A stretch of DNA of 64,000 nt. Origin: an uncultured Flavobacteriaceae bacterium (GTDB lineage Bacteria > Bacteroidota > Bacteroidia > Flavobacteriales > Flavobacteriaceae). Below are positions 37,134-54,500 of the stretch, piece by piece; positions within the stretch are counted from its first letter, which is position 1, and every line of letters starts with the position of its first letter. Below the pieces are notes generated by a model. The model had not been told where the DNA came from and searched no databases. It was given only the letters and a program-made list of their open reading frames with translations. A program made the position numbers and the translations under genes. The stretch spans positions 1 through 64,000 of the forward strand of contig CALGLR010000047.1 of the NCBI GenBank assembly GCA_937959395.1, written 5' to 3'.

Positions 37134-37524
37134 GGGGTCGACTGGTTTTGACAGCGAGATTAATTAAGTAGTAAGCACGTCGAGTAATGAAATTATACTC
37201 GTAAATACTTATTTCAACTTTTTAAACGGCGAGAATAACTACGCTTTAGCTGCATAATCCGAATTATAGTAGGATTAAGCCTCGGTACACTAGGTGTACA
37301 AGCTTTATGTCTCCGGAAAGCTTTGATTGACGGCGTTCCATTTGAGATATCGTAAATGTCAGTATAGATGGTGTAAAGCTTTGGTGCACTTTCGAAATTA
37401 AAAAGATAAGTTATAAGTGGGTTGTCTTTAACCAGCTTATAGTCGAAAACCCAAGAAAAGAATAAACGTGTAGAAAGCTCTTTGATTACTTGTTTGGACG
37501 AGAGTTCGATTCTCTCCGACTCCA
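37134..37524 (+). ncRNA. ssrA: Transfer-messenger RNA (tmRNA)
   Basis: The 5' end GGGGTCGACTGGTTTTGACAG pairs with the 3' acceptor CGACTCC (37518... 37523), and the T-arm GAGAGTTCGATTCTC precedes it. The tag frame starts with resume codon GGC at 37228 and reads GENNYALAA, stop at 37255-37257. CCA is not encoded. It rescues stalled ribosomes. Its last bases double as the attachment site of the downstream island. Confidence 0.97.
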
Positions 37525-37525
37525 C
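37513..37525 (+). other. attL core of the genomic island in ssrA
   Basis: TCTCCGACTCCAC, the 3' end of tmRNA plus one base, is repeated exactly at 54484-54496. An integrase gene begins 260 bp downstream. tmRNA 3' ends are classic targets of tyrosine recombinases. Confidence 0.85.
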
Positions 37526-37548
37526 TTATTGCGTATCAAAACGCATCA

Positions 37549-37581
37549 AAAACCCTCTAAATATATGATTTAGAGGGTTTT
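37549..37581 (+). terminator. Island-borne terminator now behind ssrA
   Basis: A 14-bp perfect stem (37549-37562 / 37568-37581), five-base loop, A- and T-flanked. It lies inside the island end, so the island supplies ssrA with a new terminator. A diverged copy lies at 50921-50963. Confidence 0.8.
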
Positions 37582-37623
37582 ACATTTTATATGATATCGT
37601 CTGATATCATATAAAACCATCTC

Positions 37624-37675
37624 AATCGAGACCAATTCGGTTACCCCATTTTGGTTTTTACAAAGGGGTCTCGAT
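37624..37675. repeat. Island-end repeat: 22-bp direct repeat copy plus inverted arm
   Basis: Positions 37624-37645 are identical to 54401-54422 at the other end of the island. ATCGAGACC at 37625-37633 also recurs inverted as GGTCTCGAT at 37667-37675. Probably arm-type binding sites for the integrase or its excision factor. Confidence 0.7.
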
Positions 37676-37787
37676 AAGCACAATATTTTACTGATTTTCA
37701 ATAGTTTACAACATTTACACCTTAGGTTATTTGATATTAATTTACTACCTTTTAAGTGAATTAGCGAGACCTAATAACTATATAATT

Positions 37788-39029
37788 ATGAAAACAGACT
37801 TTTCTACCCATTTTCACTTAGTCAATTCTAAGATAAATAATAGAGGCTTAGCTCCTATTTATCTTCGGCTTACAGTTGACAATAAGCGTACAGAATACAG
37901 TATTAGCAGAAGGATTGACCCAAAATTCTGGAATACCAAATTTCAAAAGGTCAAAGGCACAAACCGTGATGCGGTTGAAATAAATAAACACATTGATAAC
38001 CATAAGCACAAACTCAATAAAATCCACCAAAGATTGATAGATGATGACCAATTTGTCTCAGCAAAATCTATGATTAATATTTTGAAAGGTGGTGGTAAAA
38101 AAGTCAGATTTATTTTAGAAATGTTTAAAGAGCATAATGAAAAAACCGATTTATTGGCAGGAAAAGATATTTCTATTAGTACTGCCAAACGTTATTGGAC
38201 TTGTTATGACCATGTGAAACGATTTATAGAAAAAGAATATCGGCTTGAAGATTATAAATTAAAAGACATTGATTACCGCTTCATTACTAAGTTTGAGTTC
38301 TTTTTAAAAACAACGAGGAAGTGTAACCATAATTCTTCTCTAAAATATATTAATAATTTCAAAAAGATAATTCGCATTGCATTAGCCAACCAATGGATGG
38401 ATAGAGATCCATTTTATAATTATAAAGTCCAATTTGAAGCTGTTGAGCGTGAATACTTAACTGCTGAAGAAATAGAAATACTTTATACTAAAGAATTACA
38501 TTTTGATAGATTGAAAGTGGTAAGAGATATGTTTGTATTTTCTTGTTATACAGGTCTCGCCTATTCAGATGTTGAAAAACTTTCTAAGTCAGATATCACA
38601 ATTGGTATTGATGGTAAGCAATGGATAAATATTAAACGCACAAAAACAAATACGCGAAGCAGTATTCCGTTGTTACCCATAGCAAAGGAGATTTTAAGTC
38701 GATATGCTTATGATCCAAAAGTTATAAAAAGTGAGCGTTTAATTCCAGTCTTTAGCAATCAAAAATCTAATGCTTATTTAAAAGAAATCGCGATGTTATG
38801 CGGCATCACAAAACCATTAACTACTCATTTAGCGCGACATACTTTTGCAACTACTGTGACCTTAACTAATGGAGTACCTATTGAAACCGTTAGTAAAATG
38901 CTTGGTCATAAATCATTACGAACAACGCAACATTATGCAAAAATTGTAGACCGCAAAGTTAGTGACGACATGAAAATTCTTGAAGAGAAACTGAAAACCC
39001 AGAGAAAAGACCAAAAAGAAAATCAATAA
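37788..39029 (+). CDS. Tyrosine recombinase / island integrase
   Basis: 413 residues from ATG 37788, with N-terminal arm-binding domain, SAM-like core-binding domain and catalytic domain. Visible catalytic residues: HLARHTF (His-x-x-Arg), HKSLRTTQHYAKI (His and nucleophile Tyr). The first Arg position reads TGLAYSDV where phage integrases have TGLRxxE, as known for bacteroidotal recombinases such as IntDOT. Oriented away from ssrA and beside attL, so it is the enzyme that inserted the island. Confidence 0.95.
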   Translation: MKTDFSTHFHLVNSKINNRGLAPIYLRLTVDNKRTEYSISRRIDPKFWNTKFQKVKGTNRDAVEINKHIDNHKHKLNKIHQRLIDDDQFVSAKSMINILKGGGKKVRFILEMFKEHNEKTDLLAGKDISISTAKRYWTCYDHVKRFIEKEYRLEDYKLKDIDYRFITKFEFFLKTTRKCNHNSSLKYINNFKKIIRIALANQWMDRDPFYNYKVQFEAVEREYLTAEEIEILYTKELHFDRLKVVRDMFVFSCYTGLAYSDVEKLSKSDITIGIDGKQWINIKRTKTNTRSSIPLLPIAKEILSRYAYDPKVIKSERLIPVFSNQKSNAYLKEIAMLCGITKPLTTHLARHTFATTVTLTNGVPIETVSKMLGHKSLRTTQHYAKIVDRKVSDDMKILEEKLKTQRKDQKENQ

Positions 39030-39133
39030 TATATTCCATTTTAATGCAAAAATTTATAGCGTTTTTAGACCTAATTAGTTTTGCTACCAAATGATTCATT
39101 TTGCGATATGATTGGAACATGATCAAAATCAGT

Positions 39134-39188
39134 ACAACCTCTGAACAAGTAGTGGACAAGCTCTGGACAAGTAGTAAACAAGTACTGG
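39134..39188 (+). repeat. Five tandem 11-bp repeats
   Basis: Units ACAACCTCTGA, ACAAGCTCTGG-like, ACAAGTAGTGG, ACAAGTAGTAA and ACAAGTACTGG follow head to tail without gaps: 39134, 39145, 39156, 39167, 39178. The 11-bp period puts each unit on about the same helix face, suggesting a protein-binding array (excisionase, integrase arm, or iteron-like). The remaining 39030-39467 spacer shows no gene. Confidence 0.75.
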
Positions 39189-39467
39189 TACGTATATATA
39201 AACATTAACAAACAAAAGAAAACAATTATAAACTAAGCTGACAAAAAATTAAAAAATTATTTTTCTTTTTAAAAAAATCTAAATTACTTATCTAGGTTAT
39301 AAATGCAATTCAGAATCAAAAATGAGGCTGTTTACAAATGATTTAATCAATTATCTCATCATTCTTGACAACTACGCCGTACAGGGCTTAAAAAGTAATT
39401 TTAAAGCCTTTAAAATCAGCAAAACACTTGTGTTTATAAGCACTCATAGCATTTGATACTAATTGAT

Positions 39468-39923
39468 TTAATTTGGTGTTTGCTCTCCGTTATTTAAATC
39501 TTCGTTATCTTTTTTAAACTGAAATTCATTTCTTTCTTGAAATTTCAGTAAAAACTCTTTATTTATTCTTTCTCGTTCTAACTGCTCAAAACTTTTCTCA
39601 ATTAATATTTTAGGTTTTGGTTTAACGTTCATAAAAAGGGATTGTAACATTGCTAATGTCGGTTTCGTTTGATGCTTTTCTATATCTTTTATGATAGCTA
39701 TAACCGCATTAATTCTTTTCTTAATTCGATTTTCAATTTCCATTAGTCCTGGTTTTAAATCATCTTCTGGAGAAAGTTCATTACGCTCAAAAAATTCTAC
39801 CATTGAAAGCAAAGTCATTGAGTTTGATTTTGAAATTGATTTGGAATATTTTCTAAATTTCTTCACTACAGAACGCTTTATGCTCAAGCTTTCAAATCGT
39901 TCTTTTTCATAACCTTTATCCAT
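39468..39923 (-). CDS. BfmA/BtgA-family mobilisation protein
   Basis: 151 residues, basic. The N-terminal half has the BfmA/BtgA pattern (IKRSVVKKFRKYSKSISKSNSMTLLSMVEFFE ... RTEAxIAIIKDIEKHQTKPTLAMLQSLF), a ribbon-helix-helix-like accessory protein that binds oriT in Bacteroides mobilisable elements. In those elements a relaxase gene (btgB) usually follows; none is seen here. C-terminal tail acidic/Asn-rich. Confidence 0.82.
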   Translation of the reverse strand: MDKGYEKERFESLSIKRSVVKKFRKYSKSISKSNSMTLLSMVEFFERNELSPEDDLKPGLMEIENRIKKRINAVIAIIKDIEKHQTKPTLAMLQSLFMNVKPKPKILIEKSFEQLERERINKEFLLKFQERNEFQFKKDNEDLNNGEQTPN

Positions 39924-41045
39924 TTTTCCGTGAAATTTTTATTGATTTTACTGGGCTGTGAGCGTTTTTACGCTAAAAATGATTTTAATCAAAATCTTAA
40001 ACACTTGCAAACAACTAAAAATCAGTTAATTAAAAAATGTAACATCGCGCAGCGTGTTACCCTCTTGCTATACCTTTTTTTCCGATAAATCTTCAAAAAA
40101 CCTATACTTACATTTAAGATAGTTTACTAGTCAAATCAAACACTAGAATTATTAGAATTTAAGAAGCTATAATTGTAACTCTTGAATTATTTTAACTTAA
40201 TTCAGCTTATGATTGCATTATCAATAAAACCATTTACTTATTATATCTTGAGCGTTTTCCTTTTCATTTTTATTATTTAGCAGAATTTTCAAAAGAAAAA
40301 TAACTACTAGAAAATAGCATAAAAGGTTTCCTAATTCATCTACTTCCCATAGCGCCGTCGCTGTTGCCTTTTCCAAATTGTAAATCCTGAAATTTGAAGC
40401 TCATAAAGATTTATAAAAAAAGCGAGGTACGAGCCTGATTATGCAATCTGTTGAGAAGCAAATTTTATAGCTTTTGCTGGAAAAGTGATTAAGGAAACAA
40501 TTAAGATGTTATTTCTCAAATTTAAATTTGAACGCAATGTTTCGCGTTGGCTAAAAATACTGGTCATGGTAAAGGAGTATCTGTCTGATAGGCAGATTCG
40601 AAATGGACATAACTAGTATTGTGAGGAACTGGAAGCTCTTACTATTGATAGAATGTAGCTTTTGCGGAATGGAAGAAAATGTACTAAATGGAGTAGTACT
40701 AATTTTTATCCCTGAGAGTTTATTGCTAATCATTAAAATAATTCCTATTAAATATCTAAAACACCATCGCTTTTTGAAATTTTATTCTTTTTCAAAATGC
40801 TCTTTAAAGCTTGACCTAGTTTATTTTAAATCCATAATCTTAGATTTTTTCAAAAGTCCTTTTCAAAAATCTAAAAGTTCTTTTGGAGCTATTTCAATCT
40901 TAACTTTTCTTCTAATATTTATTGTATAAATTCATTAGCAATCTATTGAATGAACATATAATTTTATTTTTGAATTTAAAGTTTTATGGCAAACCATAAT
41001 TAATAATCTTCATAACTTTATATATTTAACGTTAAAACATAATCT
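39924..41045. other. Spacer with possible oriT; no convincing gene
   Basis: 1.1 kb upstream of the mobilisation gene. A hairpin GTAACAtCGC-GCA-GCGTGTTAC (40039-40060), richer in GC than its surroundings, is followed by CCTCTTGCTATACC. This is what an origin of transfer looks like, but the nic site is not proven. 40350-40700 contains fragments with coding-like character broken by stops, perhaps a decayed gene. Open frames here (for example 40603-40929) have poor composition. Confidence 0.4.
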
Positions 41046-41858
41046 ATGCTAAGATTCCTTTTTTTAATTATATTTTTCTTCAATTCTCTAAATACTTTTT
41101 CACAAAACAACTCAATTAATACTATTTCCTGGAACATACGCGACTTCGGTAAAACAAAAAGCACGGAAGAATTAGAGAAAATTGCTAATATTATTAAAGA
41201 TGTAGATATAGTTGCTATACAAGAAGTTGTATCAGGATATGGTGGTGCACAAGCAGTTGCTAAATTGAGTGATATTTTAAATAGAAAAGGGTCAAAATGG
41301 GACTATATTGTTAGTAATCCAACAAAAAGTTCTAAGTATATGACCGAGCGCTACGCATTTATTTGGAAGACCAAACATATAAAAATAAAAAACAGAGGAT
41401 CTCTAATAAAAGAATTACAGGACGAAGTAGAGCGAGAACCGCTCTTAGTTGATTTTTATATAGATGGCAAACGTTTTTCAATAATGAACTACCATTCTAT
41501 ACCACATTCAAAAAATCCAAGAACCGAAATTAAGTTACTAACAGAATACATCATAAAAAATAGCAACTCCCCCTTATTATTAGCTGGGGATTTTAACATC
41601 AGTGAAGATGATAAAGTTTTTGAGCGTTTTATAAGTGAAGGCTATATTCCTTCCATATTAAATAAAAAAACAACTATAAAGCAAAAGTGTAAGAACGGAA
41701 ATTATCTTAATTATAGCATTGATAACATCTACTACTCCAATGATATTTTTAAAGTAAAATCTAATGTGATCGATTTTGTAATAGCCTGCGAAGAAATAAC
41801 CAATGCTAGACAACTATCAGATCATCTTCCGGTTTATCTTGAATTTAAACTTAACTAA
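41046..41858 (+). CDS. Secreted DNase I-like endonuclease/exonuclease/phosphatase
   Basis: 270 residues with signal peptide (MLRFLFLIIFFFNSLNTFSQ). EEP-family catalytic blocks: ISWNIRDFG, VAIQEVV (metal-binding Glu60), MTERYAFIW, NYHSIPH (His), LLAGDFNIS (Asp-Phe-Asn) and LSDHLPVY (terminal Asp-His). Expected to degrade DNA outside the cytoplasm. Its last 8 bases overlap the end of the convergent channel gene. Confidence 0.9.
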   Translation: MLRFLFLIIFFFNSLNTFSQNNSINTISWNIRDFGKTKSTEELEKIANIIKDVDIVAIQEVVSGYGGAQAVAKLSDILNRKGSKWDYIVSNPTKSSKYMTERYAFIWKTKHIKIKNRGSLIKELQDEVEREPLLVDFYIDGKRFSIMNYHSIPHSKNPRTEIKLLTEYIIKNSNSPLLLAGDFNISEDDKVFERFISEGYIPSILNKKTTIKQKCKNGNYLNYSIDNIYYSNDIFKVKSNVIDFVIACEEITNARQLSDHLPVYLEFKLN

Positions 41859-43278
41859 GATAGATTACTTTATAAGACTCATCTACTATTAAGTCATTTT
41901 TTGGCGAAATAATTGAGTTCTGGTCACTATCAATCAATCCCAATAAAGTCTCATTTCGTTCGAGAAAATATAACTTTATTTGCTTGACTAAAGTTCCTTT
42001 TGACATTTTTAGATCTTCAAAATTCATTGTTTTAATCCTGTCATTATCATTGCCAAATAAATTGTAAAACATATCTGAAATATTTGGATTATTTATGCAA
42101 GTCGTGATGATTTTAGAGTCAATTAATTCTTTATATAGTATCTCATCGCCTTTCATTTTATCTTTAATAATTTCAGCGTTAATTTCATCATTGATTTCTG
42201 CAATTGTATGAACATCTGGCGCTTCTTTTTCAATATGAAAAATAGTCATTACGGTACGCAAATCAATATCTCTAATGGTATCGTGTTCTTTTGATTCGGC
42301 AAAAACTACAGCAAATTTTGCGCTTTTAATATTAACTTTTCTTAAAGAGCTATAATCTGTAAAATCCGCATTAAGATAAATAACACCTGAGATTTCTTCA
42401 ATCTCTTTACATGAAATAAGTACAATATTATTATAGTTTTTAACGTCTTTTAATAAATCATCTATCACATTTCTAGATGATTTTGTATAACCACAAATAA
42501 CAATATGATTTTTCAAATTAAGCTTTGTAATTTTCCCAGAAGTAATAGCATTCATAACAGTTTGTATTTTGGTTAGAAATAGAGAAATAAAGAACCCGAA
42601 TATCGCTAAATTAAAGACGAGTAATATCATTGTAAAAAACCTTCCTGTAAAAGATTTTGGTGTATCATCTACAAGTTCAATAGTTTTAAGTGTATACCAA
42701 AATGTATCTGAGAACGTAGCAAAATCAGACCCTTTTACTCTGGCTTCTGAGACAAAAATAACGAAGCTCAGTAATGTTAATAATGATATCGTAAGAAAGA
42801 AAAAAACATAGAAAACCCTATTCTGTTCTTTCATACCCTGAAGTATGATGTTTAATTTATCAATGTCTCTAAATATTTTAAAGACTCTTCCCAGGCGTAT
42901 TAATCTGAAAAGGCGTAAAAACCGAAGTGTTCTAAAGGTTCTAAAAAATGTGAGCGACGGTAGTAAAGCCAATAAGTCTATTAGAGAAGAAATTTCCAAC
43001 ATCCATAGTATTTTTTTATAGATGGCGTACCACAAGTTCTTGGTTACTATATCTTCTCTAAAATTTGTTGCTATATAAAAACGAGCGCAGTACTCTGTCA
43101 CAAAGAAAATGATAATCCCTGTATCTAAAATTTTAAGTATTCCTGTAAACTCTCCTTTCTCACTTTGTAAAAAAATAAGTACTATCGAAAAGGTAATAAC
43201 CAAAGCCAAAAAAATATCGAAGATATACTTCTTAGGGTTTTCATTATCCGTGAGCCATTTATGCAGGAATTTTTTCAT
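41851..43278 (-). CDS. Voltage-sensor-type ion channel with RCK (TrkA-N) domain and non-canonical filter
   Basis: 475 residues. Six membrane segments: S1 about 18-37, S4 with arginine at every third position (113, 116, 119, 122, 125, 128, 131), pore domain 155-235, then a cytosolic RCK/TrkA-N Rossmann domain (from 258, HIVICGYTKSSRNVIDDL) and a TrkA-C-like end. The loop where K+ channels have TVGYGD reads WYTLKTIELVDDTPKSF (194-210), without Gly-Tyr-Gly and with three acidic residues. So ion selectivity is open: not a classic K+ channel. Last gene of the island operon; its start overlaps the lipoprotein stop by 4 nt. Confidence 0.88.
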   Translation of the reverse strand: MKKFLHKWLTDNENPKKYIFDIFLALVITFSIVLIFLQSEKGEFTGILKILDTGIIIFFVTEYCARFYIATNFREDIVTKNLWYAIYKKILWMLEISSLIDLLALLPSLTFFRTFRTLRFLRLFRLIRLGRVFKIFRDIDKLNIILQGMKEQNRVFYVFFFLTISLLTLLSFVIFVSEARVKGSDFATFSDTFWYTLKTIELVDDTPKSFTGRFFTMILLVFNLAIFGFFISLFLTKIQTVMNAITSGKITKLNLKNHIVICGYTKSSRNVIDDLLKDVKNYNNIVLISCKEIEEISGVIYLNADFTDYSSLRKVNIKSAKFAVVFAESKEHDTIRDIDLRTVMTIFHIEKEAPDVHTIAEINDEINAEIIKDKMKGDEILYKELIDSKIITTCINNPNISDMFYNLFGNDNDRIKTMNFEDLKMSKGTLVKQIKLYFLERNETLLGLIDSDQNSIISPKNDLIVDESYKVIYLS

Positions 43279-43679
43279 TCCAGTGTTTTAAGTGATAACT
43301 CAAGAATAAAATTTGTAACCATTGGTCCATAAGAAGCAATCATATCAGCACTTTTTCTATCGACAAGACATTCTATGGTTTGTTGCCCATCGCTATACAA
43401 TCTTACATACCTTACTTTAATGCCCTTTACCATTTGACCTTTTGCAAAAGGCTTGTTAACTATGAGTGGTATTTTGCCTGTTGTATCGTCTATAATACTA
43501 ATACTAGTATTTAAAAAAGAGGTTGTTTCAACCACAGTAAATTTCGACAGTTTGAAGTCTTTTTTCTCTGAATATTCCGTAGGATTATCCTGCACCATTT
43601 TAATGGTACTTATTCGATTGTTTTTGGATGAACAAGAAGTAAATAATACAAATATGAGTATGTATTTTGAAGCATTCAT
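43275..43679 (-). CDS. Small lipoprotein with OB-fold-like pattern
   Basis: 134 residues. Lipobox LFTSC (Cys16). The middle (KLSKFTVVETTSFLNTSISI...DDTTGKIPLIVN...GQMVKGIKVRYVRLY) has the strand rhythm of an OB fold. No family named. Overlaps the channel gene by ATGA and is itself overlapped by the upstream 47-residue gene, so the three are translationally coupled. Confidence 0.75.
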   Translation of the reverse strand: MNASKYILIFVLFTSCSSKNNRISTIKMVQDNPTEYSEKKDFKLSKFTVVETTSFLNTSISIIDDTTGKIPLIVNKPFAKGQMVKGIKVRYVRLYSDGQQTIECLVDRKSADMIASYGPMVTNFILELSLKTLE

Positions 43680-43819
43680 TTTTTTGAGCCTCCTTTTGAA
43701 CTAGACGAACCACTTTTTGAGCTTCCATTTGATGTTTTGGGTGGATTATTACTTCGTCCTCCTCCAGATTTATTTCCTGTTTTACTTGGTGCATTTTTCA
43801 TTCCACTAGACTTTGCCAT
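43676..43819 (-). CDS. 47-residue Ser/Gly/Lys-rich basic protein
   Basis: ATG at 43819, stop 43676-43678 overlapping the ATG of the next gene. The peptide starts MAKSSGMKNAPSKTGNKSGG and continues in Ser, Gly, Lys and Asn with a polybasic end. It has almost no hydrophobic residues, so it is predicted disordered. Evidence for reality: exact overlap coupling with the lipoprotein gene and no competing frame in the 205-bp gap. Role unknown; a nucleic-acid-binding or phosphate-binding tail is a guess. Confidence 0.6.
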   Translation of the reverse strand: MAKSSGMKNAPSKTGNKSGGGRSNNPPKTSNGSSKSGSSSSKGGSKK

Positions 43820-43885
43820 AATTATGTGTTTTTAAGTTTTGTTATTTGTTAATCGTTCTGAAAATTTATTATCAAAAGGCAGTTC

Positions 43886-45016
43886 TTATTCAACTGGCAC
43901 TCTAATTCTTGTCTCTCTAATATCCATTCTTGTTTTATTAAGTGTAACGGTTATTGGTTCTTCCCTTTCTCTGTCGTATTCAACAATCTCAAATACTTTT
44001 ACTTCTTTTACAGCAACAACCTTAACATCTACATCAATGCCCTGAAATTTATTATCATTGATTAATCCTATATAAAAAGTCCCATGAGTTCGGTTTGTGT
44101 TTTTTCCATAAGCAGCAACTCCTTTTCCTGTATCGAATTGCAAGTAGGTTTGGCCCTTTACAAATTTTTCTGCATTTTCATAATCCGGAATAAATGAATA
44201 ATACACATCTTCTCCGGTTTTAGGAATAAGTAGTTCTGTAATAGTTCCGACGGCTAATCCTGCTAAAGGTGTGCCGTAAATTGATGTGATTCCGTTTGCT
44301 AAACTTTCAACTGATTTTGCGTTTTCTTGGTAGGCTTGTTGCGCTTCTTGTCCTACACCAATCCAATACGCCCAGGCAATAACTTTTTCTTCTTTTAACT
44401 TTGTAGCAATAGGGCTCGGTAAATTAACTCTAAGATAGGTGCTACTTCTATTTTCGTTATAATAAGAATGAACGCGCTGATTTTTATTAAAAAGTAAATC
44501 TTCAACATTTTCTGTCTTAACTAATTCTCTTACTTTCTCTTTATATTTAATTGTATTGTAACCCGTAATACTATCGATAGTATAAGGTGTGTAAATGGTA
44601 TCTCTTACGGTTTCCCATTTCCAGTTGGTATTAAAATTTATGGTTGAATCGTCTGCAGGAATTCGATATATTTTAATCTTACCAACTCTTTTGGTTAATG
44701 ACGAGCTATAAAACCTGAATTTGTAAAGTCCCTTGTTTCGTATCTGTATTTGTCTTTTAGTGATTTTACTCACTTTAAAATCGCTAAAAACCTTATTGTT
44801 AGGTAACTCAAAAACTTCTATTTCTTTTAAGTGTTTGCCTTTTAACATTTCAAAACTAAACTCAATAATATCGCCTTCTGCAAAACTGAAAAACAACTCT
44901 TCTGTTTCATCAAGGTTCAACGAAATTGTAGATTCGGTTACTAAAATAGGGGTTCCAGTAGCTGCTACATTCTGCGTGATAATAATTATAAATGCTAATA
45001 GTATTTTTTTTGTCAT
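43886..45016 (-). CDS. Secreted protein of unknown function
   Basis: 376 residues with signal peptide (MTKKILLAFIIIITQNVAATG). Residues 25-120 look like a beta-sandwich (SLNLDETEELFFSFAEGDIIEFSFE, GLYKFRFYSSSL), similar in rhythm to PPC-like domains. A central charged segment follows, then a hydrophobic glycine-rich stretch (220-270, SIYGTPLAGLAVGTITELLIP) and a C-terminal beta-rich part. No family recognised. Sits in the middle of the island operon. Confidence 0.75.
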   Translation of the reverse strand: MTKKILLAFIIIITQNVAATGTPILVTESTISLNLDETEELFFSFAEGDIIEFSFEMLKGKHLKEIEVFELPNNKVFSDFKVSKITKRQIQIRNKGLYKFRFYSSSLTKRVGKIKIYRIPADDSTINFNTNWKWETVRDTIYTPYTIDSITGYNTIKYKEKVRELVKTENVEDLLFNKNQRVHSYYNENRSSTYLRVNLPSPIATKLKEEKVIAWAYWIGVGQEAQQAYQENAKSVESLANGITSIYGTPLAGLAVGTITELLIPKTGEDVYYSFIPDYENAEKFVKGQTYLQFDTGKGVAAYGKNTNRTHGTFYIGLINDNKFQGIDVDVKVVAVKEVKVFEIVEYDREREEPITVTLNKTRMDIRETRIRVPVE

Positions 45017-45045
45017 AGTTTTTTTGTTTAGGATTTTAATAATTT

Positions 45046-45873
45046 TTATCCAATAGCTGTTACTGAATTAGCCACTCTTTTTTCGTTTCCAACCAGAGTT
45101 GTGTAATATCTTTGTTCAATTCCGAACATTAATGATTTCAGACTTTGTTCATCCCCAATCGCGAAGCTTCTGTCCTCTTCTGAAAACTCTAAATCTTCAC
45201 AATAATCTTTAATGTAATCATATATAGAAGCTTTTTGTGCGTTTGTAAAATTGTTAAATGTATCCATCGCCATTGCTATTCGTTTACGATTCGCTTTTTT
45301 AACTCTTTCAGCATTATAACCTTCCGTTAGATTTATAAAGCCATTATCCAAAAATTCCGCAGTATCTTCTTCTGTTGCCTCACGGTATAAGGAACCAATG
45401 CCTGAGAAGATAGCAGTAATAGAAGTTAGTTTTTTAAAATATAGAATATCACTAGTCTTATCGTAGATTGCATCTGGTAAGACTTTTATTATTATAATTG
45501 GATTATCGGTTTTTAATTCAGGTTCCTTAGATATATAAAACCATTTACGATTGATGGTCTGACTTTTTGATAACTTCTGAAAATAATAATACCTATTACT
45601 CTGATAAGAACATAAGTAACTTAGTTTATCATAATCTGCTCTTATTATTTGGTTGAATTCTGCCGAATTAAAATCATTTGTTATGAGGGCAATTGAGTAA
45701 TCTGTTTCTGAAAAATTATCAATAGCGAACCATTCATCATCTTCTAATTTATAGTTAGTATCATATTCGCGAGGATTATCCAAATCATTTGGCAATTCGA
45801 AGACATTTTCGCCAGACATTAATTTTACTATCTGTCCGTTTCGCCCTGATTTTTTAGCAAGTAAATGGTTCAT
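45046..45873 (-). CDS. Uncharacterised cytosolic protein, partner of the small membrane protein
   Basis: 275 residues, no signal. N-terminal part alpha/beta with acidic surface, a central strand (DNPIIIIKVLPDAIYDK). The C-terminal half is helical: ERVKKANRKRIAMAMDTFNNFT, then KASIYDYIKDYCEDLEF, and the last third SLKSLMFGIEQRYYTTL...KRVANSVTAI. I remember similar C-termini in unassigned bacterial proteins but cannot name a family. It begins 5 nt after the membrane-protein gene. The membrane-plus-cytosolic-partner layout recalls Kiwa-like defence pairs; this is analogy, not homology. Confidence 0.7.
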   Translation of the reverse strand: MNHLLAKKSGRNGQIVKLMSGENVFELPNDLDNPREYDTNYKLEDDEWFAIDNFSETDYSIALITNDFNSAEFNQIIRADYDKLSYLCSYQSNRYYYFQKLSKSQTINRKWFYISKEPELKTDNPIIIIKVLPDAIYDKTSDILYFKKLTSITAIFSGIGSLYREATEEDTAEFLDNGFINLTEGYNAERVKKANRKRIAMAMDTFNNFTNAQKASIYDYIKDYCEDLEFSEEDRSFAIGDEQSLKSLMFGIEQRYYTTLVGNEKRVANSVTAIG

Positions 45874-45878
45874 ATATT

Positions 45879-46157
45879 TTAAGTTAAATCAATAAATGTA
45901 AAGTCGTTAATTCTTTTAAGTTTCTCAAATTCCGTTTCTTTTGGGGCTTTTAAAATTCTGCGTGTTATGACAAAAATTTTGATTTCATTCGTAGTAGTTA
46001 AATAGTAGAAATGATATCTAAAAATTAAAAACAACGGATTGAAATAAAGTGTTTGTGATAGAAATGTAAACACAAATAATATTGCAAAAACAAAAATTAG
46101 AGTATCCACATATGGAATACTTAATGCAACTTCTGCTACTAATACTTTTTTGAACAT
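45879..46157 (-). CDS. Small membrane protein with cytosolic tail
   Basis: 92 residues. Hydrophobic segments about 13-34 and 38-52, then FNPLFLIFRYHFYYLTTTNEIKIFVITRRILKAPKE, a beta-hairpin-like cytosolic tail. Begins 5 nt after the histidine kinase stop and ends 5 nt before the next gene. No named family. Confidence 0.75.
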   Translation of the reverse strand: MFKKVLVAEVALSIPYVDTLIFVFAILFVFTFLSQTLYFNPLFLIFRYHFYYLTTTNEIKIFVITRRILKAPKETEFEKLKRINDFTFIDLT

Positions 46158-46162
46158 AATTA

Positions 46163-48205
46163 TTATACTGGGATTTCAATACTTATCTTAAATCCGTTTG
46201 TTATTGATTTATCAAATATAAAACTCCCGCCAATAGCTTCAATACGGTTTTCCGCATTTACTAAACCAACACCCTTTGATATTTTATTTTTATATGTACC
46301 AATTCCATTGTCAGTATATCCTATTTTTATAATATTATTTTTTCTGCTAAAGATTACACTTACAAGGCTTGCATTACTGTGCTTGCGCATGTTTACTAAA
46401 AGTTCTTTGATGACTCTATCTACTATTAGTTTTTTTTCATTAGAAATATCAATCCAAATATCAGCTATTAAACTTTGTACAATAACATTAGTATCTTCGG
46501 TTTTAAAAGAGGCTAATGTTTTCTTTAAATCATCAATAAACTCTTTGTTACTCCTTATGGTTGTTTTCTCTTGAGAAAGATCTCTAGCCTTATGATAAAT
46601 ATCTTCGAGATTATCAACAACTTCAGCAATTGAAGCCGTATTATTTTCTAATTGTACCATTGAACTATAAACATCATTTGCTAATTCATCGTGTATGCGT
46701 TTTGAAATGCGTTTTTCGGTTTCTAATACTTTTTGTTGCTGTACTTTTGTATGCCTATTTTTTAAAATTATAACAATTAATACTATTGTAAGAATTGCTG
46801 TTATTAATCCAAATAAATACCAATTATTTAGTTTTTGTTTTTTGAGTCGGTCGGCTTTTATGATAGAATTATCTTTAAGCAGTTTTTCGTTATTATATTT
46901 AGTCGATGAGTAAAGTTCTCTATTTTGCTGATTTATTTTAGTTAATTTTTTATCAATTTTAGTATATAGTAATGCTTCTTCTTTAGGGTTATCTTTAAGT
47001 TTAATAATGTATCCTAAGGATTCAAGTTGTGAAATTTGATCATTTATTTTTGTGGCATTTAATAGTGCTTCCTTCGCAAAACCATGTGCTTTCTTTGGAG
47101 ATCGGTTTTCATAGTATTCTGTTAGCCTTATATTGCTAGAGATCAACCCTCTTATATCTTTTGTTTCTTTTCTAATAACTAAAGCTGTATGCAAAAGATA
47201 CTCTGAAATATCATTATCTGAATTCTTTAACCATTCAACATAACCCAAATTATTTATGACTCGAGCATATTCTGTTTTATTTGTAATAGAATCAATTTGA
47301 TTTTTAAGATTATTAAAAATCACAATTGCCACTTTGTAATTGCCTTGATCCCCTAAGATATTAGCTTTAGTATTCTCTAATATTCTTTTAATTTTATTTG
47401 AAGGTAATAAATCTAATGCTTTGTTATTGTTTTTTAGTGCATTATCAAAATTTCCTTCTTCTCTATATGCTGTTGTTATGGTTTGATATAGTCCAAAAAT
47501 TGTTACTCTATTATCTTGATTTTCTAAATATTTTAATCCGTCTATAGCAGTAATTCTACTTCCTATAAAATCTCCAAGATTTTTTTGAATCTTAGACATT
47601 TCTAATAAACTTTTAGCTAAATTAATACTATCTCCAATTTTTTTATATAAGTCAAAGGACTTTGTATAGGAGTTAAATGATTTTTGTAGTTGATCGTCTT
47701 TCCTAAAATATCTACCAAGTTTTAAGTATGTGAAAGCCATTGTAGAGCTATCCGCTTTCTCAATAGCATTATTTAATAATTTATGAGAATAAAAAATACT
47801 TTTTTTATAGTCGCTTTTCTTTGCTGAATATAGAGCTGCTTTCTTTAAACCTGACACTAGGTAATCATAATTTGAATGCATCTTACCTAAAGCAATAATA
47901 CTTTTAGAATAAAATAAAGCACTATCAATTTCTTTAAACTTAGAATGAAAAATTGTTTTTAACATCAAAGACTTATAGATAAACGAGTCCTGATTCTCTT
48001 TAACTGCTATTTTGTAAAGTAGATTAGCACTTTTAAACTTAATACTGTCTGCTAGGTTATTGTTTTTTGCAATATCATAAACACTATCACTTCTTACAAT
48101 TTTAAAATTTGTTTTTTGAAAATTATCATCTGTTTTTTTACAGGACAAATTGTATAACAAGATAAAACTCAAAAAAAAGAGGGATATATATTTTTTAATA
48201 AACAT
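46163..48205 (-). CDS. TPR-containing lipoprotein histidine kinase, no adjacent response regulator
   Basis: 680 residues. Lipobox-like YNLSC (Cys22), TPR array (60-400), membrane helix 461-482, then dimerisation helix with RIHDELANDVYSS (His505), and HATPase_c (IKELLVNMRKHSNASLV, TDNGIGTYKN, GVGLVNAENRIEAIGG). Like the kinase at 17436 it belongs to the NarX/DesK type, but no regulator gene is near. First large gene of the island operon; it may signal to a distant regulator or to its operon partners. Confidence 0.88.
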   Translation of the reverse strand: MFIKKYISLFFLSFILLYNLSCKKTDDNFQKTNFKIVRSDSVYDIAKNNNLADSIKFKSANLLYKIAVKENQDSFIYKSLMLKTIFHSKFKEIDSALFYSKSIIALGKMHSNYDYLVSGLKKAALYSAKKSDYKKSIFYSHKLLNNAIEKADSSTMAFTYLKLGRYFRKDDQLQKSFNSYTKSFDLYKKIGDSINLAKSLLEMSKIQKNLGDFIGSRITAIDGLKYLENQDNRVTIFGLYQTITTAYREEGNFDNALKNNNKALDLLPSNKIKRILENTKANILGDQGNYKVAIVIFNNLKNQIDSITNKTEYARVINNLGYVEWLKNSDNDISEYLLHTALVIRKETKDIRGLISSNIRLTEYYENRSPKKAHGFAKEALLNATKINDQISQLESLGYIIKLKDNPKEEALLYTKIDKKLTKINQQNRELYSSTKYNNEKLLKDNSIIKADRLKKQKLNNWYLFGLITAILTIVLIVIILKNRHTKVQQQKVLETEKRISKRIHDELANDVYSSMVQLENNTASIAEVVDNLEDIYHKARDLSQEKTTIRSNKEFIDDLKKTLASFKTEDTNVIVQSLIADIWIDISNEKKLIVDRVIKELLVNMRKHSNASLVSVIFSRKNNIIKIGYTDNGIGTYKNKISKGVGLVNAENRIEAIGGSFIFDKSITNGFKISIEIPV

Positions 48206-48239
48206 CCCTCAAAAGTACAATTAATTTCTTTTTAAGAAA

Positions 48240-48401
48240 TTAATTACCAGTACCATCATCATCATCTTCTTCTTCTTCTATTTCTCCATCATCACCATTT
48301 ATGGCAACTTCTTCAACTTGGTCTACTAAAGCTTCTGGCGAACAAGACGTAAAGTTTGCACCAACAAATAAAACAATCATTATATAAAATATAGTTTTCA
48401 T
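48240..48401 (-). CDS. Small acidic lipoprotein (53 aa)
   Basis: From ATG 48401 (longer frames start inside the structured spacer and hide the signal peptide): MKTIFYIMIVLFVGANFTSC with lipobox Cys20, then a tail ending in an Asp/Glu run (EIEEEEDDDDGTGN). Could bind cations. Located 34 nt before the kinase gene on the same strand, so probably first in the operon. Confidence 0.65.
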   Translation of the reverse strand: MKTIFYIMIVLFVGANFTSCSPEALVDQVEEVAINGDDGEIEEEEDDDDGTGN

Positions 48402-48498
48402 AATTTTTAAAATTTTAGAATTAAACATTAGTGTCTCCGTCCAGGTTTTTATACCTAGAGACATTAATGGCACTATTGCCATCTGTTAACAATTATTT

Positions 48499-48633
48499 TA
48501 GGAAGTTGAAACCCTATGCGATTGTCTTTAGTAACTTCCTATCGACTATCAACAAACCGCATTATGGGTTTCCTCAATGATTGATTTTGTACAAGTGTTA
48601 TGTTTAGCAAGGCTTAACGAAAACCAATCACTG
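48499..48633. other. Structured spacer with nested inverted repeats
   Basis: TAGGAAGTT (48499-48507) pairs with AACTTCCTA (48533-48541). GAAACCC/ATGCG (48508-48520) pairs with CGCAT/GGGTTTC (48558-48572). TGATTGATTTT (about 48578-48588) pairs with AAAACCAATCA (about 48620-48630). The first two stems are mutually exclusive in part. The region lies between divergent transcripts. It may be a regulatory RNA, an operator or a remnant recombination site. Confidence 0.4.
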
Positions 48634-48774
48634 ATGCAAAGATGTGAAGAGATTGTATTTTAATCGTAGACAGGAAAAGGACTTGCAAAGGACATCTTTA
48701 AGACACCTTTAAAATCAGTACACTCAAGAGTTTGAGTCTTGCAGAAGTCTTAAAGAATTTTGTAACTTTAGAGT

Positions 48775-50016
48775 ATGGATCATCATATTATTCAACAGAT
48801 TGTAGAAAAAATGTTTGATAAAGCTAAAAAGAGCTGCTCTTCACATGCTCCAAATGCTTTATCAAAACATATTGCTGATGAATCTGACTATGAGTTTAAT
48901 TATAGAACTGCCGAGAGAGCCTATAAAAGATATATAGATAATAACACAGGAATAGGAGCACCAATTCCAGAAACGATTAACAGTTTTTGCAAATATTTAG
49001 ATTGTGATAATTATAAAGATTATGTAGAAAAGAATATAAAAAATGACCCAAAAACTGAAGAACCGAAAGATAAAAAAGAGCTAGATAATATAGAAGGAAA
49101 CACTACTGATCTAGAAAGCGAAGGTGGAGAAAACAACAAGAAAAACAGAAGATGGATTTTAACACTTAAAATAACTACAGCATTTGCGCTTACATTTATC
49201 ATTTATCAGCTTGTGAACCCAACTATAGGTAAAAAGAATACCATACAACCAATTGAATGCATGACTTGGTCAGTAAATCACTATGAAAAAATAGATTGTG
49301 ATTTTCAATTACACCCAGAATATGGAACAAAAGTAGAGCCATACGACGCTTATAAAAGTAAAATGAAAAAATTGAAAGTGAATGCCTCTTATGATTTTTT
49401 TTCTAAAGAAACTGGTCGTCCATTAGTATGGTATTATAAAACTAAGAAGGGGACTTTAGAATATTTTAATCTACCTGGCTTTCATCCACTTAATGGAGAA
49501 ACATTAAAAAAAATAACTCAAGGAATGATTGAAAAATATATTCCAATTCATATAACTAAACCAGATTCTTTCGTTTCTTCGGATAATATAAGTTCTACAA
49601 ACGCAGATATAGCAATTTTAGTTTTGGATGGAAATGATTTTGACAATCAGCTAACCTCAGCTTTAAAAACCAACTATTTCAATAAGAAAAGCTCTATTGT
49701 AAGATTGAAAGGTTCTGATATTTATGATGAAAATTTTATTTCTAATTTTAGTACTAATGAAAAACTCTTTTTAAACACTAAATCAATAAAAGTTGACACT
49801 CTTTTTTTAGGTGTTTCTAAATATGATTTTCATAATAATATTGACAAAAAAGATATGATCATTTGCAATCTTCAATTTGATTTCCAAATTCATATCCATA
49901 ATAATAATAATAATAATTGGAAAGAAGTAATAACAAAAACAACTACTTCTATTGGAACTGGATATTCTATAACTGAAGCAAAAACCAACGCAATAAAAAA
50001 AATTAATTATGAATAA
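48775..50016 (+). CDS. Membrane-tethered protein with N-terminal DNA-binding-like domain
   Basis: 413 residues. Residues 1-88 look like a helix-turn-helix/winged domain seen in other flavobacterial proteins (AERAYKRYID ... PETINSFCKYLDCDNYKDYVEKN). An acidic linker follows, one membrane helix (127-146), then about 265 residues on the far side with no known domain. ToxR-like topology suggests a membrane-bound transcription regulator (inference). Overlaps the CsgG-like gene by 8 nt. Confidence 0.7.
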   Translation: MDHHIIQQIVEKMFDKAKKSCSSHAPNALSKHIADESDYEFNYRTAERAYKRYIDNNTGIGAPIPETINSFCKYLDCDNYKDYVEKNIKNDPKTEEPKDKKELDNIEGNTTDLESEGGENNKKNRRWILTLKITTAFALTFIIYQLVNPTIGKKNTIQPIECMTWSVNHYEKIDCDFQLHPEYGTKVEPYDAYKSKMKKLKVNASYDFFSKETGRPLVWYYKTKKGTLEYFNLPGFHPLNGETLKKITQGMIEKYIPIHITKPDSFVSSDNISSTNADIAILVLDGNDFDNQLTSALKTNYFNKKSSIVRLKGSDIYDENFISNFSTNEKLFLNTKSIKVDTLFLGVSKYDFHNNIDKKDMIICNLQFDFQIHIHNNNNNNWKEVITKTTTSIGTGYSITEAKTNAIKKINYE

Positions 50017-50836
50017 AACACAATATCTTATTTTGATTGTTTTATGTTTTTATACTCAAACATCTTATTCACAAGGCTTTGACAAAAGTATTTCTAAAGT
50101 TATTGATACCATATCTAATAAACTAAATAATAAAGAAAAAAACGAGTTTCAAATAGCCATATATCCATTTAAATATAATAAAGACAATGAAGATGTGCTT
50201 GCTGAATATGTGACAGAAGAATTTTGGGATTTGATGTCTAAATCTGCTATTAATTATAACGTTATAGATAGAGCTACTTTTGATGAGTACTTCAAAGAGC
50301 ACAGATTAAAAAGCACAGGTTTAATTGACCCCAAGACTGAAAAGCAATTTGGCATGTTAATAGCTGCAGATGCATATGTTACAGGAAAAGTTTATGTTTT
50401 CAATAGTATAATTAGATTAAGAGTTACTGTTACAGATACTCAAACAGGAAAAATCATCACAACAGAATCTGGAAAACTACCAATCACTTATGACGTAGCT
50501 AGCTATATAGGGTTAAAAGATTGGAAAGAAAAAAAAGTAGAAGCTGAAAAAAACAAGAGTTCAAATCCAAATTGTGAAAAGGAGAATGTTGGAGATATTT
50601 GTTTTCAAAACAACTCGAAATATAAATATGATATAAAGATTCAAAACCTTAGAAGCCCCATGTCCACACTTTATCGAAATATTTCGATTAATTCAGGAAA
50701 ACATGCTTGTTTTAGAGATCTACCTTCCGAAACATATTACTACTCTATAACTGCAAAGCTTAATGCCTATGCTGGCATAAAAAAGGGTAACATCTTTATT
50801 AAAACCTGCCAATCATCCATTATTGAAGTTGATTAA
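50009..50836 (+). CDS. CsgG/FlgO-like periplasmic protein
   Basis: 275 residues with signal peptide (to about residue 22). A CsgG-like domain (FQIAIYPFKYNKDNEDVLAEYVTEEFWDLMS ... NVIDRATFDEYFKEH ... MLIAADAYVTGKVYVF ... LRVTVTDTQTGKI) is followed by a Cys-containing C-terminal beta domain (about 185-275). Expected in the periplasm or outer membrane. Coupled to the membrane-tethered protein, which may sense or assemble with it. Confidence 0.78.
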   Translation: MNKTQYLILIVLCFYTQTSYSQGFDKSISKVIDTISNKLNNKEKNEFQIAIYPFKYNKDNEDVLAEYVTEEFWDLMSKSAINYNVIDRATFDEYFKEHRLKSTGLIDPKTEKQFGMLIAADAYVTGKVYVFNSIIRLRVTVTDTQTGKIITTESGKLPITYDVASYIGLKDWKEKKVEAEKNKSSNPNCEKENVGDICFQNNSKYKYDIKIQNLRSPMSTLYRNISINSGKHACFRDLPSETYYYSITAKLNAYAGIKKGNIFIKTCQSSIIEVD

Positions 50837-50920: not shown

Positions 50921-50963
50921 TCAAAACACATCAAAAACCCTATAAATTTATGATTTACAAGGT
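50921..50963. repeat. Diverged copy of the sequence behind ssrA, convergent terminator
   Basis: TCAAAACaCATCAAAAACCC-T matches 37536-37556 with one change, and the following hairpin (AAAACCCTATAAAT / ATTTACAAGGTTTT) is a mutated form of the terminator at 37549-37581. It lies between convergent genes and overlaps the HipT-like stop. Suggests an older island boundary. Confidence 0.5.
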
Positions 50964-51896
50964 TTTAAACTTAATAACTTCAAACCGATTGTTTAAAATA
51001 TTCTTATACTTGAATTTCATCTTATCACTCAAAAATGAAACTTCAATTAAATTCAATGAACTTTCTTTTAATTCAAAAAAACGTTTCAAAACGCCATATA
51101 CTTGTTTTTTAGACAATCCTAAACCAATTCCAAAATCAAGAAAATTCTGAAGTGTTATTTTTTTCTTTTTGCCAGCAATTGTTAAGGCTAATTCTTCTGT
51201 ATCTTCTGGGTTAACTATTTTAACATTTAACAAATCATAAGCAGGAGCTAATGCCCATCCATAAGATGTTTTAATCATTGAGAAGTTTTTTAGATGCATA
51301 TCATTATTTGCTGTGAGATAACTAAAAATTGTAAGTTCAAAAAAACGTAGTTTATCTAAAAGCGTGTTATCAGCGTAGGTGTCAATGGCTTTTCCTATGC
51401 GCTCCATGGAGCCTCTATATTTATCAAATGCTTCTAGTACCTGAAACATATCTATCATGTGTATTTTTGATCCATCTTCTGCCCTATCTATGCGTTTAGT
51501 GATATAGGATAACTCGCCAGAAGCTAATTTAATAAGCGTATGAGGAACTACATCAATACTAAACAGGTCTGCCATCTTCATCGTTAGATGTTCATTTGCT
51601 GGCATTTCCGTAAAGTCTTTAGATGGTGGCTTAAAAATATAATTTCCGCCTAAAGCACCAACTATAGTTAGTCTACTATCTGTTTTATCATCATTTAATA
51701 ATGACATTGATAATTTTGGTTGTACACCAGGGACTGAGACACTTCTTTCAACGACCTGTAATGCCAAGGCATTCATATCATCTAATGAGTATTCAATTTT
51801 TGGTGGTATTTCAGTTCCAAAAAAAGTTAGACTACACGCCACATGAAAATCGCTATCTAAATCAACATCTTTATAACAGTATAAACACTTATTCAT
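50955..51896 (-). CDS. HipT-like Ser/Thr kinase toxin (HipA C-terminal)
   Basis: 313 residues from the second ATG (51896); the first, 9 nt earlier, is also possible. N-terminal zinc-ribbon-like CLYC...HVAC, then the HipA kinase core: GVQPKLSMSL (the Ser-x-Ser autophosphorylation motif found in HipT), FKPPS, NNDMHLKNFS (catalytic Asp and Asn) and APAYDLLN (metal-binding). The HipA N-subdomain is missing and encoded separately upstream. It should phosphorylate a translation factor or aminoacyl-tRNA synthetase. Confidence 0.88.
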   Translation of the reverse strand: MNKCLYCYKDVDLDSDFHVACSLTFFGTEIPPKIEYSLDDMNALALQVVERSVSVPGVQPKLSMSLLNDDKTDSRLTIVGALGGNYIFKPPSKDFTEMPANEHLTMKMADLFSIDVVPHTLIKLASGELSYITKRIDRAEDGSKIHMIDMFQVLEAFDKYRGSMERIGKAIDTYADNTLLDKLRFFELTIFSYLTANNDMHLKNFSMIKTSYGWALAPAYDLLNVKIVNPEDTEELALTIAGKKKKITLQNFLDFGIGLGLSKKQVYGVLKRFFELKESSLNLIEVSFLSDKMKFKYKNILNNRFEVIKFKTL

Positions 51897-54400: not shown

Positions 54401-54422
54401 AATCGAGACCAATTCGGTTACC
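54401..54422. repeat. Right copy of the 22-bp island-end direct repeat
   Basis: Identical to 37624-37645. It lies 62 bp inside attR, while the left copy lies 98 bp inside attL. Confidence 0.75.
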
Positions 54423-54483: not shown

Positions 54484-54496
54484 TCTCCGACTCCAC
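54484..54496 (+). other. attR core
   Basis: TCTCCGACTCCAC, identical to the tmRNA 3' end. The bases before it (AGTTCGGATTCTC, 54458... then eight extra bases) resemble a damaged tmRNA T-arm. Confidence 0.8.
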
Positions 54497-54500
54497 AGTA

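Follow-up and report, generated by a model that had tools for sequence, protein, structure and literature searches.

An eight-gene operon on an ssrA island of a Flavobacteriaceae bacterium is probably the deletion remnant of a mobile, sensor-headed gene cluster

Introduction

Do eight tightly spaced genes on one strand, with a sensor kinase near their head and an unusual ion channel at their end, make up one system? The question is raised by a stretch of 64,000 nucleotides (nt) from an uncultured Flavobacteriaceae bacterium (assembly GCA_937959395.1, contig CALGLR010000047.1, positions 1 to 64,000), here called the window, in which eight co-directional open reading frames (ORFs) occupy 41851-48482 of the minus strand. 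An initial annotation took them for a membrane-signalling operon on a mobile island, composed of an acidic lipoprotein, a TPR histidine kinase, a small membrane protein, a cytosolic protein, a secreted protein, a small basic protein, a second lipoprotein and an RCK channel, and suggested that they act by membrane depolarisation after a trigger such as a phage or a competitor. Here, we compare these genes with their relatives in other genomes. As far as sequences can tell, a mobile, sensor-headed cluster of about 20 genes has lost 14 kilobases by deletion, and the eight-gene 'operon' is its remnant. The interesting results are the head of this cluster, which recurs elsewhere, and a channel with a conserved acidic filter.

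Results

The comparison that bears most directly on the question is with an uncultured Algibacter (G036, CANMQH010000012.1), another genus of the same family, which carries a near-identical island in ssrA (loci L028, L029 and L043). The spacing of the eight ORFs had been annotated correctly, with gaps of 5, 5, 29 and 66 nt and two 4-nt overlaps, to which an omitted gap of 34 nt between the lipoprotein and the kinase is to be added. From the head downward, the genes and the features that set them apart from G036 are as follows.

48240..48401, minus strand: micro-lipoprotein of 53 amino acids (aa), taken from an inner ATG start, the form seen in relatives
46163..48205, minus strand: TPR histidine kinase, adjacent response regulator lost, no differences from G036
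46130..46131, no strand: deletion junction, 1 bp common to both sides; G036 has 13,847 bp there
45879..46157, minus strand: fusion ORF (92 aa); 46131-46157 are regulator codons 1-9, and 45879-46130 are the last 83 kwaA codons and the stop
45314..46113, no strand: tract with 44 differences from G036, adjoining the deletion scar; a different kwaAB allele
45046..45873, minus strand: kwaB (Kiwa), complete, 275 aa, mosaic (PADLOC KwaB E 2.8e-14, residues 31-272); 45314-45873 belong to another allele than that of G036
43886..45016, minus strand: 376-aa exported protein, modelled with an N-terminal GOLD fold (residues 29-119) and then two strands of about 50 residues
43676..43819, minus strand: 47-aa basic, Ser/Gly-rich ORF, no family
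43275..43679, minus strand: 134-aa lipoprotein-like protein, no family above cut-off
41851..43278, minus strand: 475-aa voltage-sensor-type channel with RCK, filter residues 199-204 TIELVD (42667-42684)

The 13,847 bp that are gone between kinase and kwaA contradict the idea that the eight genes are one fixed system. In G036, the kinase is followed by a response regulator, about a dozen genes and an intact kwaA-kwaB pair. Besides the 222-aa regulator, the extra DNA of G036 encodes a DUF3892 protein, a 351-aa protein with HsdR_N, several small proteins, two proteins of membrane type (437 and 128 aa, judged by eye), a tubulin-like protein of 511 aa, a 1186-aa protein with a weak FtsA match and proteins of 539 and 273 aa, and it ends with the first half of kwaA. 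In the window, regulator codon 9 is joined in frame to KwaA residue 96, which keeps 9 of the 222 regulator codons and 83 of the 178 KwaA residues, and the first nine residues of the fusion ORF are those of the G036 response regulator. The 92-aa ORF was therefore rejected as a free-standing family of small membrane proteins: it has no Pfam match and is made of KwaA and regulator pieces. The earlier statement that only the kinase and the channel belong to known families does not hold either, as the 'cytosolic protein' is KwaB and the 'small membrane protein' carries the end of KwaA, both by PADLOC models.

A gene set with the tubulin-like protein (511 aa) and the 1186-aa protein (weak actin-fold match), beside a relative of the 437-aa protein, stands in four of the genomes fetched (L029 2933-12206; L056 4659-13865; L063; L071) and is missing from the window. 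The label 'Actin/Hsp70-like' that we use for the 1186-aa protein combines its weak FtsA match with our own reading of the sequence.

Window and G036 show one difference over 37394-45313, none over 46130-49723 and one more (52633) from there to the island end. Within the kwaB part of the divergent tract, 19 codons differ synonymously and 12 change the amino acid. The only chromosomal flank that matches, the left one, is about 70% identical between the two genomes, and the near-identity of the islands beside such a flank indicates that the island moved recently between genera. With only 2 bases differing outside the swapped tract, that a frame is open in the window says little about whether it functions. 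As a whole, these observations are best explained by a recent deletion, through which the gene set in the window very probably descends from a mobile cargo operon led by a two-component pair. DNA that carried another kwaAB allele would have recombined homologously inside kwaB, and the same DNA would have been joined illegitimately within the regulator gene, over the 1 bp shared, with removal of the intervening DNA; one event is the simplest reading. Such an event is known as homology-facilitated illegitimate recombination.

What the deletion left of Kiwa is a complete KwaB (DUF4868), whose gene lies 5 nt after the KwaA remnant and whose G036 counterpart is 96% identical. The KwaA part of the fusion ORF matches the PADLOC KwaA model (E 2.8e-10) at model positions 98-170 of 173 only, so that the window has no complete KwaA; the G036 protein matches at full length (E 1.5e-10, residues 1-177 against model positions 2-170). 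Since the window KwaA lacks its first 95 residues and keeps, by hydropathy, one of three hydrophobic helices, Kiwa in the window is probably dead. In the review PMC12904381, KwaA is described as a membrane tetramer to which KwaB binds, and KwaB that has bound injected DNA blocks replication and late transcription; such a mechanism should be beyond a KwaA that has lost its N-terminal half. Of 397 family genomes, three gave a KwaB match (the window's own, G036 and a third at 36% identity), and this scarcity led us to reject Kiwa as a regular partner of the kinase.

The upper end of the operon recurs far more widely. The kinase is recognised by HATPase_c (22.1 bits, below the Pfam cut-off of 26.4) and by the UhpB profile (E 4.7e-12, residues 501-679); the regulator next to it, of which the window has the nine codons mentioned, is whole in G036. 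A profile of this regulator matched 191 of 397 family genomes at E <= 1e-20, a figure that over-counts the subfamily, as the listed E-values form a strong and a weak group. The 48 loci compared comprise 8 that were found first and 40 chosen, with some skipped, from the top of the listed regulator matches (E 1.2e-113 to 3.7e-88). L079 and L082, where the ORF filter lost the regulator, were dropped, leaving 46 loci; L053 and L060 duplicate one place within these 46, and counts of gene runs omit L060 (45 loci). ORFs were called by length, without a gene finder, and gene labels are best BLAST hits.

In 44 of the 46 loci the kinase lies directly upstream of the regulator. A micro-lipoprotein precedes 26 of 44 kinases, compared with 1 of 305 other long ORFs of the same loci, which served as controls. 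The pattern behind this count was drawn from some of the counted loci and widened afterwards, which favours it, and a stricter first pattern gave 16 of 44, with no control. In relatives, the lipoprotein has 50-60 aa and the appearance MKKIY..LTVFLN..LFSCTP..CCGEDGEIPPPPPP; the acidic lipoprotein of the window keeps the GDDGE part, has an acidic tail where relatives have prolines, and is counted among the 26 through its G036 copy. A fourth member is transcribed away from the kinase and is followed by a further exported protein.

48775..50016, plus strand: 413-aa protein with one predicted transmembrane helix, divergent from the kinase, no Pfam match
50009..50836, plus strand: CsgG-like exported protein (PF03783, 23.4 bits, cut-off 20.8)

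Relatives of the 413-aa protein lie divergently upstream in 24 of the 46 loci, with 3 more elsewhere. Comparison across the loci thus shows micro-lipoprotein, TPR kinase, regulator and divergent membrane protein to be a recurring head of variable co-directional genes in Flavobacteria-type genomes. Among the entries listed by our literature searches, none describes this head. The genome of the window holds a second complete lipoprotein-kinase-regulator locus with cargo on contig C72 (L042 6895-17988), whose regulator is the one match of this family elsewhere in the genome; the C72 regulator might take over for the one that was lost.

Several gene clusters recur behind the head, on its strand. 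Within 12 kb downstream on the regulator strand we found the TerB-like cluster c3 in 14 of 14 loci, c4 and c5 in 13 of 13 each, c6 and c7 in 9 of 9 each, the YidD cluster c11 and the DUF4236-like cluster c14 in 7 of 7 each, and the HsdR_N and 376-aa proteins in 7 of 8 each (c3 to c27 are our own cluster numbers). Clusters c12, c13 and c22 never lie downstream on that strand and mark a shared chromosomal site. Among recognised defence genes, Kiwa is the set of the G036 run, and a Hachiman-type HamB (702 aa) stands in an operon behind the same kinase-regulator pair in L081 (1438-14901); the cargo representatives include one HamA match. Type I restriction genes belong to the runs of L086, L091 and L094 and, by clustering with these, L095.

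The exported 376-aa protein was modelled with AlphaFold2 on 14 sequences (pLDDT 87.6, pTM 0.53). Its GOLD fold matches 5azw_B (Z 13.9, rmsd 1.3, 90 residues; Foldseek was also run), long strands lie at 132-182 and 327-374, and a sequence search of the PDB returned no solved relative at E <= 1. The model suggests an exported, possibly assembling, recognition protein. A scan of genome contigs with this protein gave 16 loci, and in six of them (L049, L052, L053, L054, L055, L059), besides G036, kinase and regulator lie upstream of the 376-aa gene on the same strand. The HsdR_N gene is directly upstream, or separated by one gene, in L049, L053, L054, L056 and L059, and the order that recurs among loci is lipoprotein, kinase, regulator where present, further genes and the 376-aa protein. 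In L049 (8951-11122, Croceitalea), the HsdR_N gene and the 376-aa gene each read as two ORFs. Among 23 loci compared, with no genome-wide search made, we saw the 47-aa protein and the 134-aa lipoprotein in the near-identical island of G036 alone. A scan gave 42 promoter sites and 1 terminator site, where shuffled sequences gave 40.0 and 2.3, and was uninformative.

The last gene had been called an odd ion channel, and rightly. It is a channel-family protein with both PF02254 (32.3 bits) and PF22614 (32.8 bits) above cut-off, in which TIELVD takes the place of TVGYGD, so that the TVG[YF]G filter is absent. TIELVD is also found in a 62% identical protein of Aquimarina (G397, L103). Among weaker homologs from 18 loci, 16 have TVG[YF]GD at this place, L020 was not alignable and L027 gave no hit. 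Judged from these alignments, the acidic filter is conserved and the channel is genuinely odd; presumably, the Glu in TIELVD recalls the filters of bacterial sodium channels. The Aquimarina channel lies directly after the 273-aa gene of the tubulin-containing set, convergent with a relative of the DNase that adjoins the window channel. This position suggests, from two genomes, that the channel probably belongs with the gene set lost from the window. Strong channel matches among 299 family genomes are confined to the window's genome and G036, and 275 have some weak match; at E <= 1e-20, only the window's own genome matched among 395 genomes of the order, with Aquimarina G397 in addition, and plasmids gave no match at E <= 1e-15. 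Given this scarcity, the channel was rejected as a general part of the module.

The location of these genes on an island in ssrA agrees with the initial annotation.

37134..37525, plus strand: ssrA (tmRNA, by ARAGORN), integration target; att core is its 3' end, 37513-37525
37624..37645, plus strand: 22-bp exact direct repeat, second copy at 54401-54422, one inside each island end
37731..39029, plus strand: island tyrosine recombinase (Arm-DNA-bind_5, Phage_int_SAM_5, Phage_integrase)
41046..41858, plus strand: Exo_endo_phos protein (Pfam), the DNase named above, convergent with the channel
54484..54496, plus strand: copy of the ssrA 3' end, exact repeat, the island's other end

A tyrosine recombinase lies by ssrA, and the ssrA 3' end TCTCCGACTCCAC is found at 37513 and, as an exact repeat, at 54484. 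Identity with G036 stops right after the second copy, the alignment reaching 54504 with differences at 54497, 54498 and 54501, and the G036 island has an identical layout at ssrA. The 22-bp repeats are probably recombinase arm sites. The neighbours, annotated as two toxin-antitoxin-like modules and a secreted DNase, are a HipA-type pair, an AbiEii-like gene (19.9 bits, under the Pfam cut-off of 22.5) and the Exo_endo_phos protein, of which Aquimarina has a relative at the same place (L103 681-1496). The Croceitalea locus L049 likewise has tmRNA, recombinase and DNase together, and its far end was not found there; the related recombinase, DNase and AbiEii-like genes of this island adjoin the tmRNA. 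Between recombinase and DNase, the window encodes a 151-aa protein (39468-39923) that is identical in G036 and has no Pfam match at E <= 0.001. A stretch of 56 bp after ssrA (37536-37591) is repeated at 86% just before the HipA gene (50921-50976), and the island may, from this repeat, be two elements side by side.

Discussion

How would the intact cluster work? An envelope event would be sensed by the exported lipoprotein together with the kinase's TPR part, the kinase would then phosphorylate the regulator, and expression of the cargo would rise. In G036, the cargo so driven would be Kiwa at the membrane, the HsdR_N protein, the tubulin-containing gene set and the acidic-filter channel. In the window, signalling would be cut at the regulator and Kiwa at KwaA, and transcription from upstream may still reach the other genes. 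The data are fitted best by a sensor of the envelope that drives exchangeable cargo, where we infer both control and function. We tentatively go one step further, at somewhat less than an even chance of being right, and propose that Flavobacteriaceae-type bacteria have an undescribed switch for envelope sensing, made up of micro-lipoprotein, TPR kinase, divergent regulator and divergent membrane protein, which would turn on operons of exchangeable conflict cargo and move between genera on ssrA islands. Its cargo would include Kiwa, Hachiman, type I restriction, HsdR_N with the GOLD-domain exported protein, the tubulin-containing assembly and the voltage-sensor RCK channel, in which an acidic TIELVD filter would have replaced a potassium filter. 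Of the membrane-signalling operon as first annotated, the parts that stand are the mobile island, a sensor heading membrane and secreted cargo, and the odd channel; the kinase here has no adjacent regulator. The link to phage conflict is plausible, as KwaB is a known defence protein and HamB or type I restriction genes follow the same pair in a few loci.

A number of observations weigh against such a switch. Only 6 of 45 loci (G036, L081, L086, L091, L094, L095) have recognised defence sets in the run that follows the regulator, which makes the link suggestive only; 13 of 45 loci are without any ORF that meets the rule for a co-directional run there. The type I restriction genes of L065 and an HsdR-like gene of L077 are on the opposite strand, and regulator control of downstream genes is read from their position. 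The 102 cargo representatives match 357 PADLOC models, compared with 36 for 102 controls (random proteins under 1300 aa from 266 other downstream clusters), a count of redundant models rather than proteins that gives a hint only. Eight of the 16 loci that have the 376-aa protein (L045-L048, L050, L051, L057, L058) show no kinase, regulator or HsdR_N match in the DNA examined, so this protein is not tied to the head. The scarcity of defence sets would also suit an ordinary chromosomal stress regulator, beside which defence genes hitch-hike at a permissive site. Such a regulator would explain why matches are so common in the family, of which the weaker ones are probably other regulators, and why several copies stand beside the same chromosomal genes (c12, c13, c22). 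We consider it an unlikely explanation that deserves to be kept in mind, as the clusters that recur are almost always downstream of the regulator and on its strand, and as ssrA islands carry the module together with its cargo (window, G036, L049).

The deletion has to be weighed in the same way. Its junction is known from the assembly alone, and a misassembly at 46130 is conceivable, in which case the organism would have the G036 arrangement on a mis-joined contig. A draft genome of 130 contigs and a microhomology of only 1 bp at the junction would agree with such a chimera, but the missing segment (13,846 bp queried) has no near-identical copy elsewhere in the genome, whose rated completeness is 99.75% and which has only two short matches to it (68% and 76% identical, on C72). 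The genome also has a single KwaB match, and a mis-join of the same island would not make a different kwaAB allele by the junction; a chimera is very improbable. The fusion ORF is in frame and open, and a new function is possible. Loss of the regulator and the KwaA N-terminus could be adaptive if it releases KwaB, the channel and the 376-aa protein from control by the signal, with the regulator start codon and its 5-nt spacing after the kinase kept. This is a single observation, a third of junctions are in frame by chance, and Kiwa works via KwaA tetramers that KwaB binds, as described in PMC12904381; we hold an adaptive fusion to be improbable. An intact eight-gene defence, in which the kinase senses a trigger and the cell is depolarised through the channel and the small membrane protein, is scarcely credible. 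It has in its favour that all ORFs are open, tightly spaced and on one strand, and that they include a real channel-family protein whose non-canonical filter is conserved in a second genome. However, what had been read as a membrane pair includes half of KwaA behind nine regulator codons, the kinase is without a regulator, and open frames mean little in islands so nearly identical, which leaves depolarisation unsupported. The co-occurrence check proposed with it found at least four of the eight genes together only in G036 among the loci fetched, and there with 13.8 kb more. A recent deletion in a sensor-headed cargo operon accounts best for the eight genes.

A tidy operon can mislead, as the 'small membrane protein' really is a deletion scar. 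If the head does control the cargo, it would suggest, in testable form, how an envelope signal makes some bacteria turn on defence genes that are costly, and electrophysiology has a concrete target in the conserved TIELVD channel.

How does the cluster relate to known systems? As in Kiwa, the full-length KwaA of G036 adjoins KwaB and the window KwaB is complete. In contrast to Kiwa, the window KwaA is truncated, the pair stands far down a kinase-headed operon and the sequences are divergent, single-sequence PDB searches with the G036 pair giving unrelated proteins at best (E 0.05 and 0.5). With Response_reg_2/HEF_HK elements (PMC8011034), the cluster shares the idea of a two-component pair standing with restriction genes, whereas PF19191 and PF19192 match neither the window kinase (E <= 1) nor the G036 regulator (E <= 0.1). 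In the segment missing from the window, a tubulin-like protein (Tubulin_2 24.6 bits, cut-off 27) and one with a weak actin-fold match (FtsA E 0.006), next to membrane-type proteins, recall FtsZl1-vWA systems (PMC2875224) and GTPase-tubulin-HSP70 conflict systems (PMC7159879); unlike in those systems, no vWA, DO-GTPase or GAP1 match was found among the scanned proteins, and the tubulin set is not in the window. The kinase is akin to UhpB/NarX-type kinases: its core matches the UhpB, MctS and NarX profiles (E 4.7e-12 and weaker, all far below curated cut-offs), and in its relatives a regulator follows directly downstream. It differs from them in its TPR region, the preceding micro-lipoprotein and the variable genes that follow, and the G036 regulator has neither a receiver nor an HTH match in Pfam at E <= 0.1, 'LuxR-type' being our own reading of its sequence. 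The channel, finally, shares with MthK/Kv-type RCK channels its hydrophobic segments, an arginine-rich S4-like stretch (by eye), a pore and the TrkA_N/RCK part, and is set apart from them by TIELVD in the place of TVGYGD.

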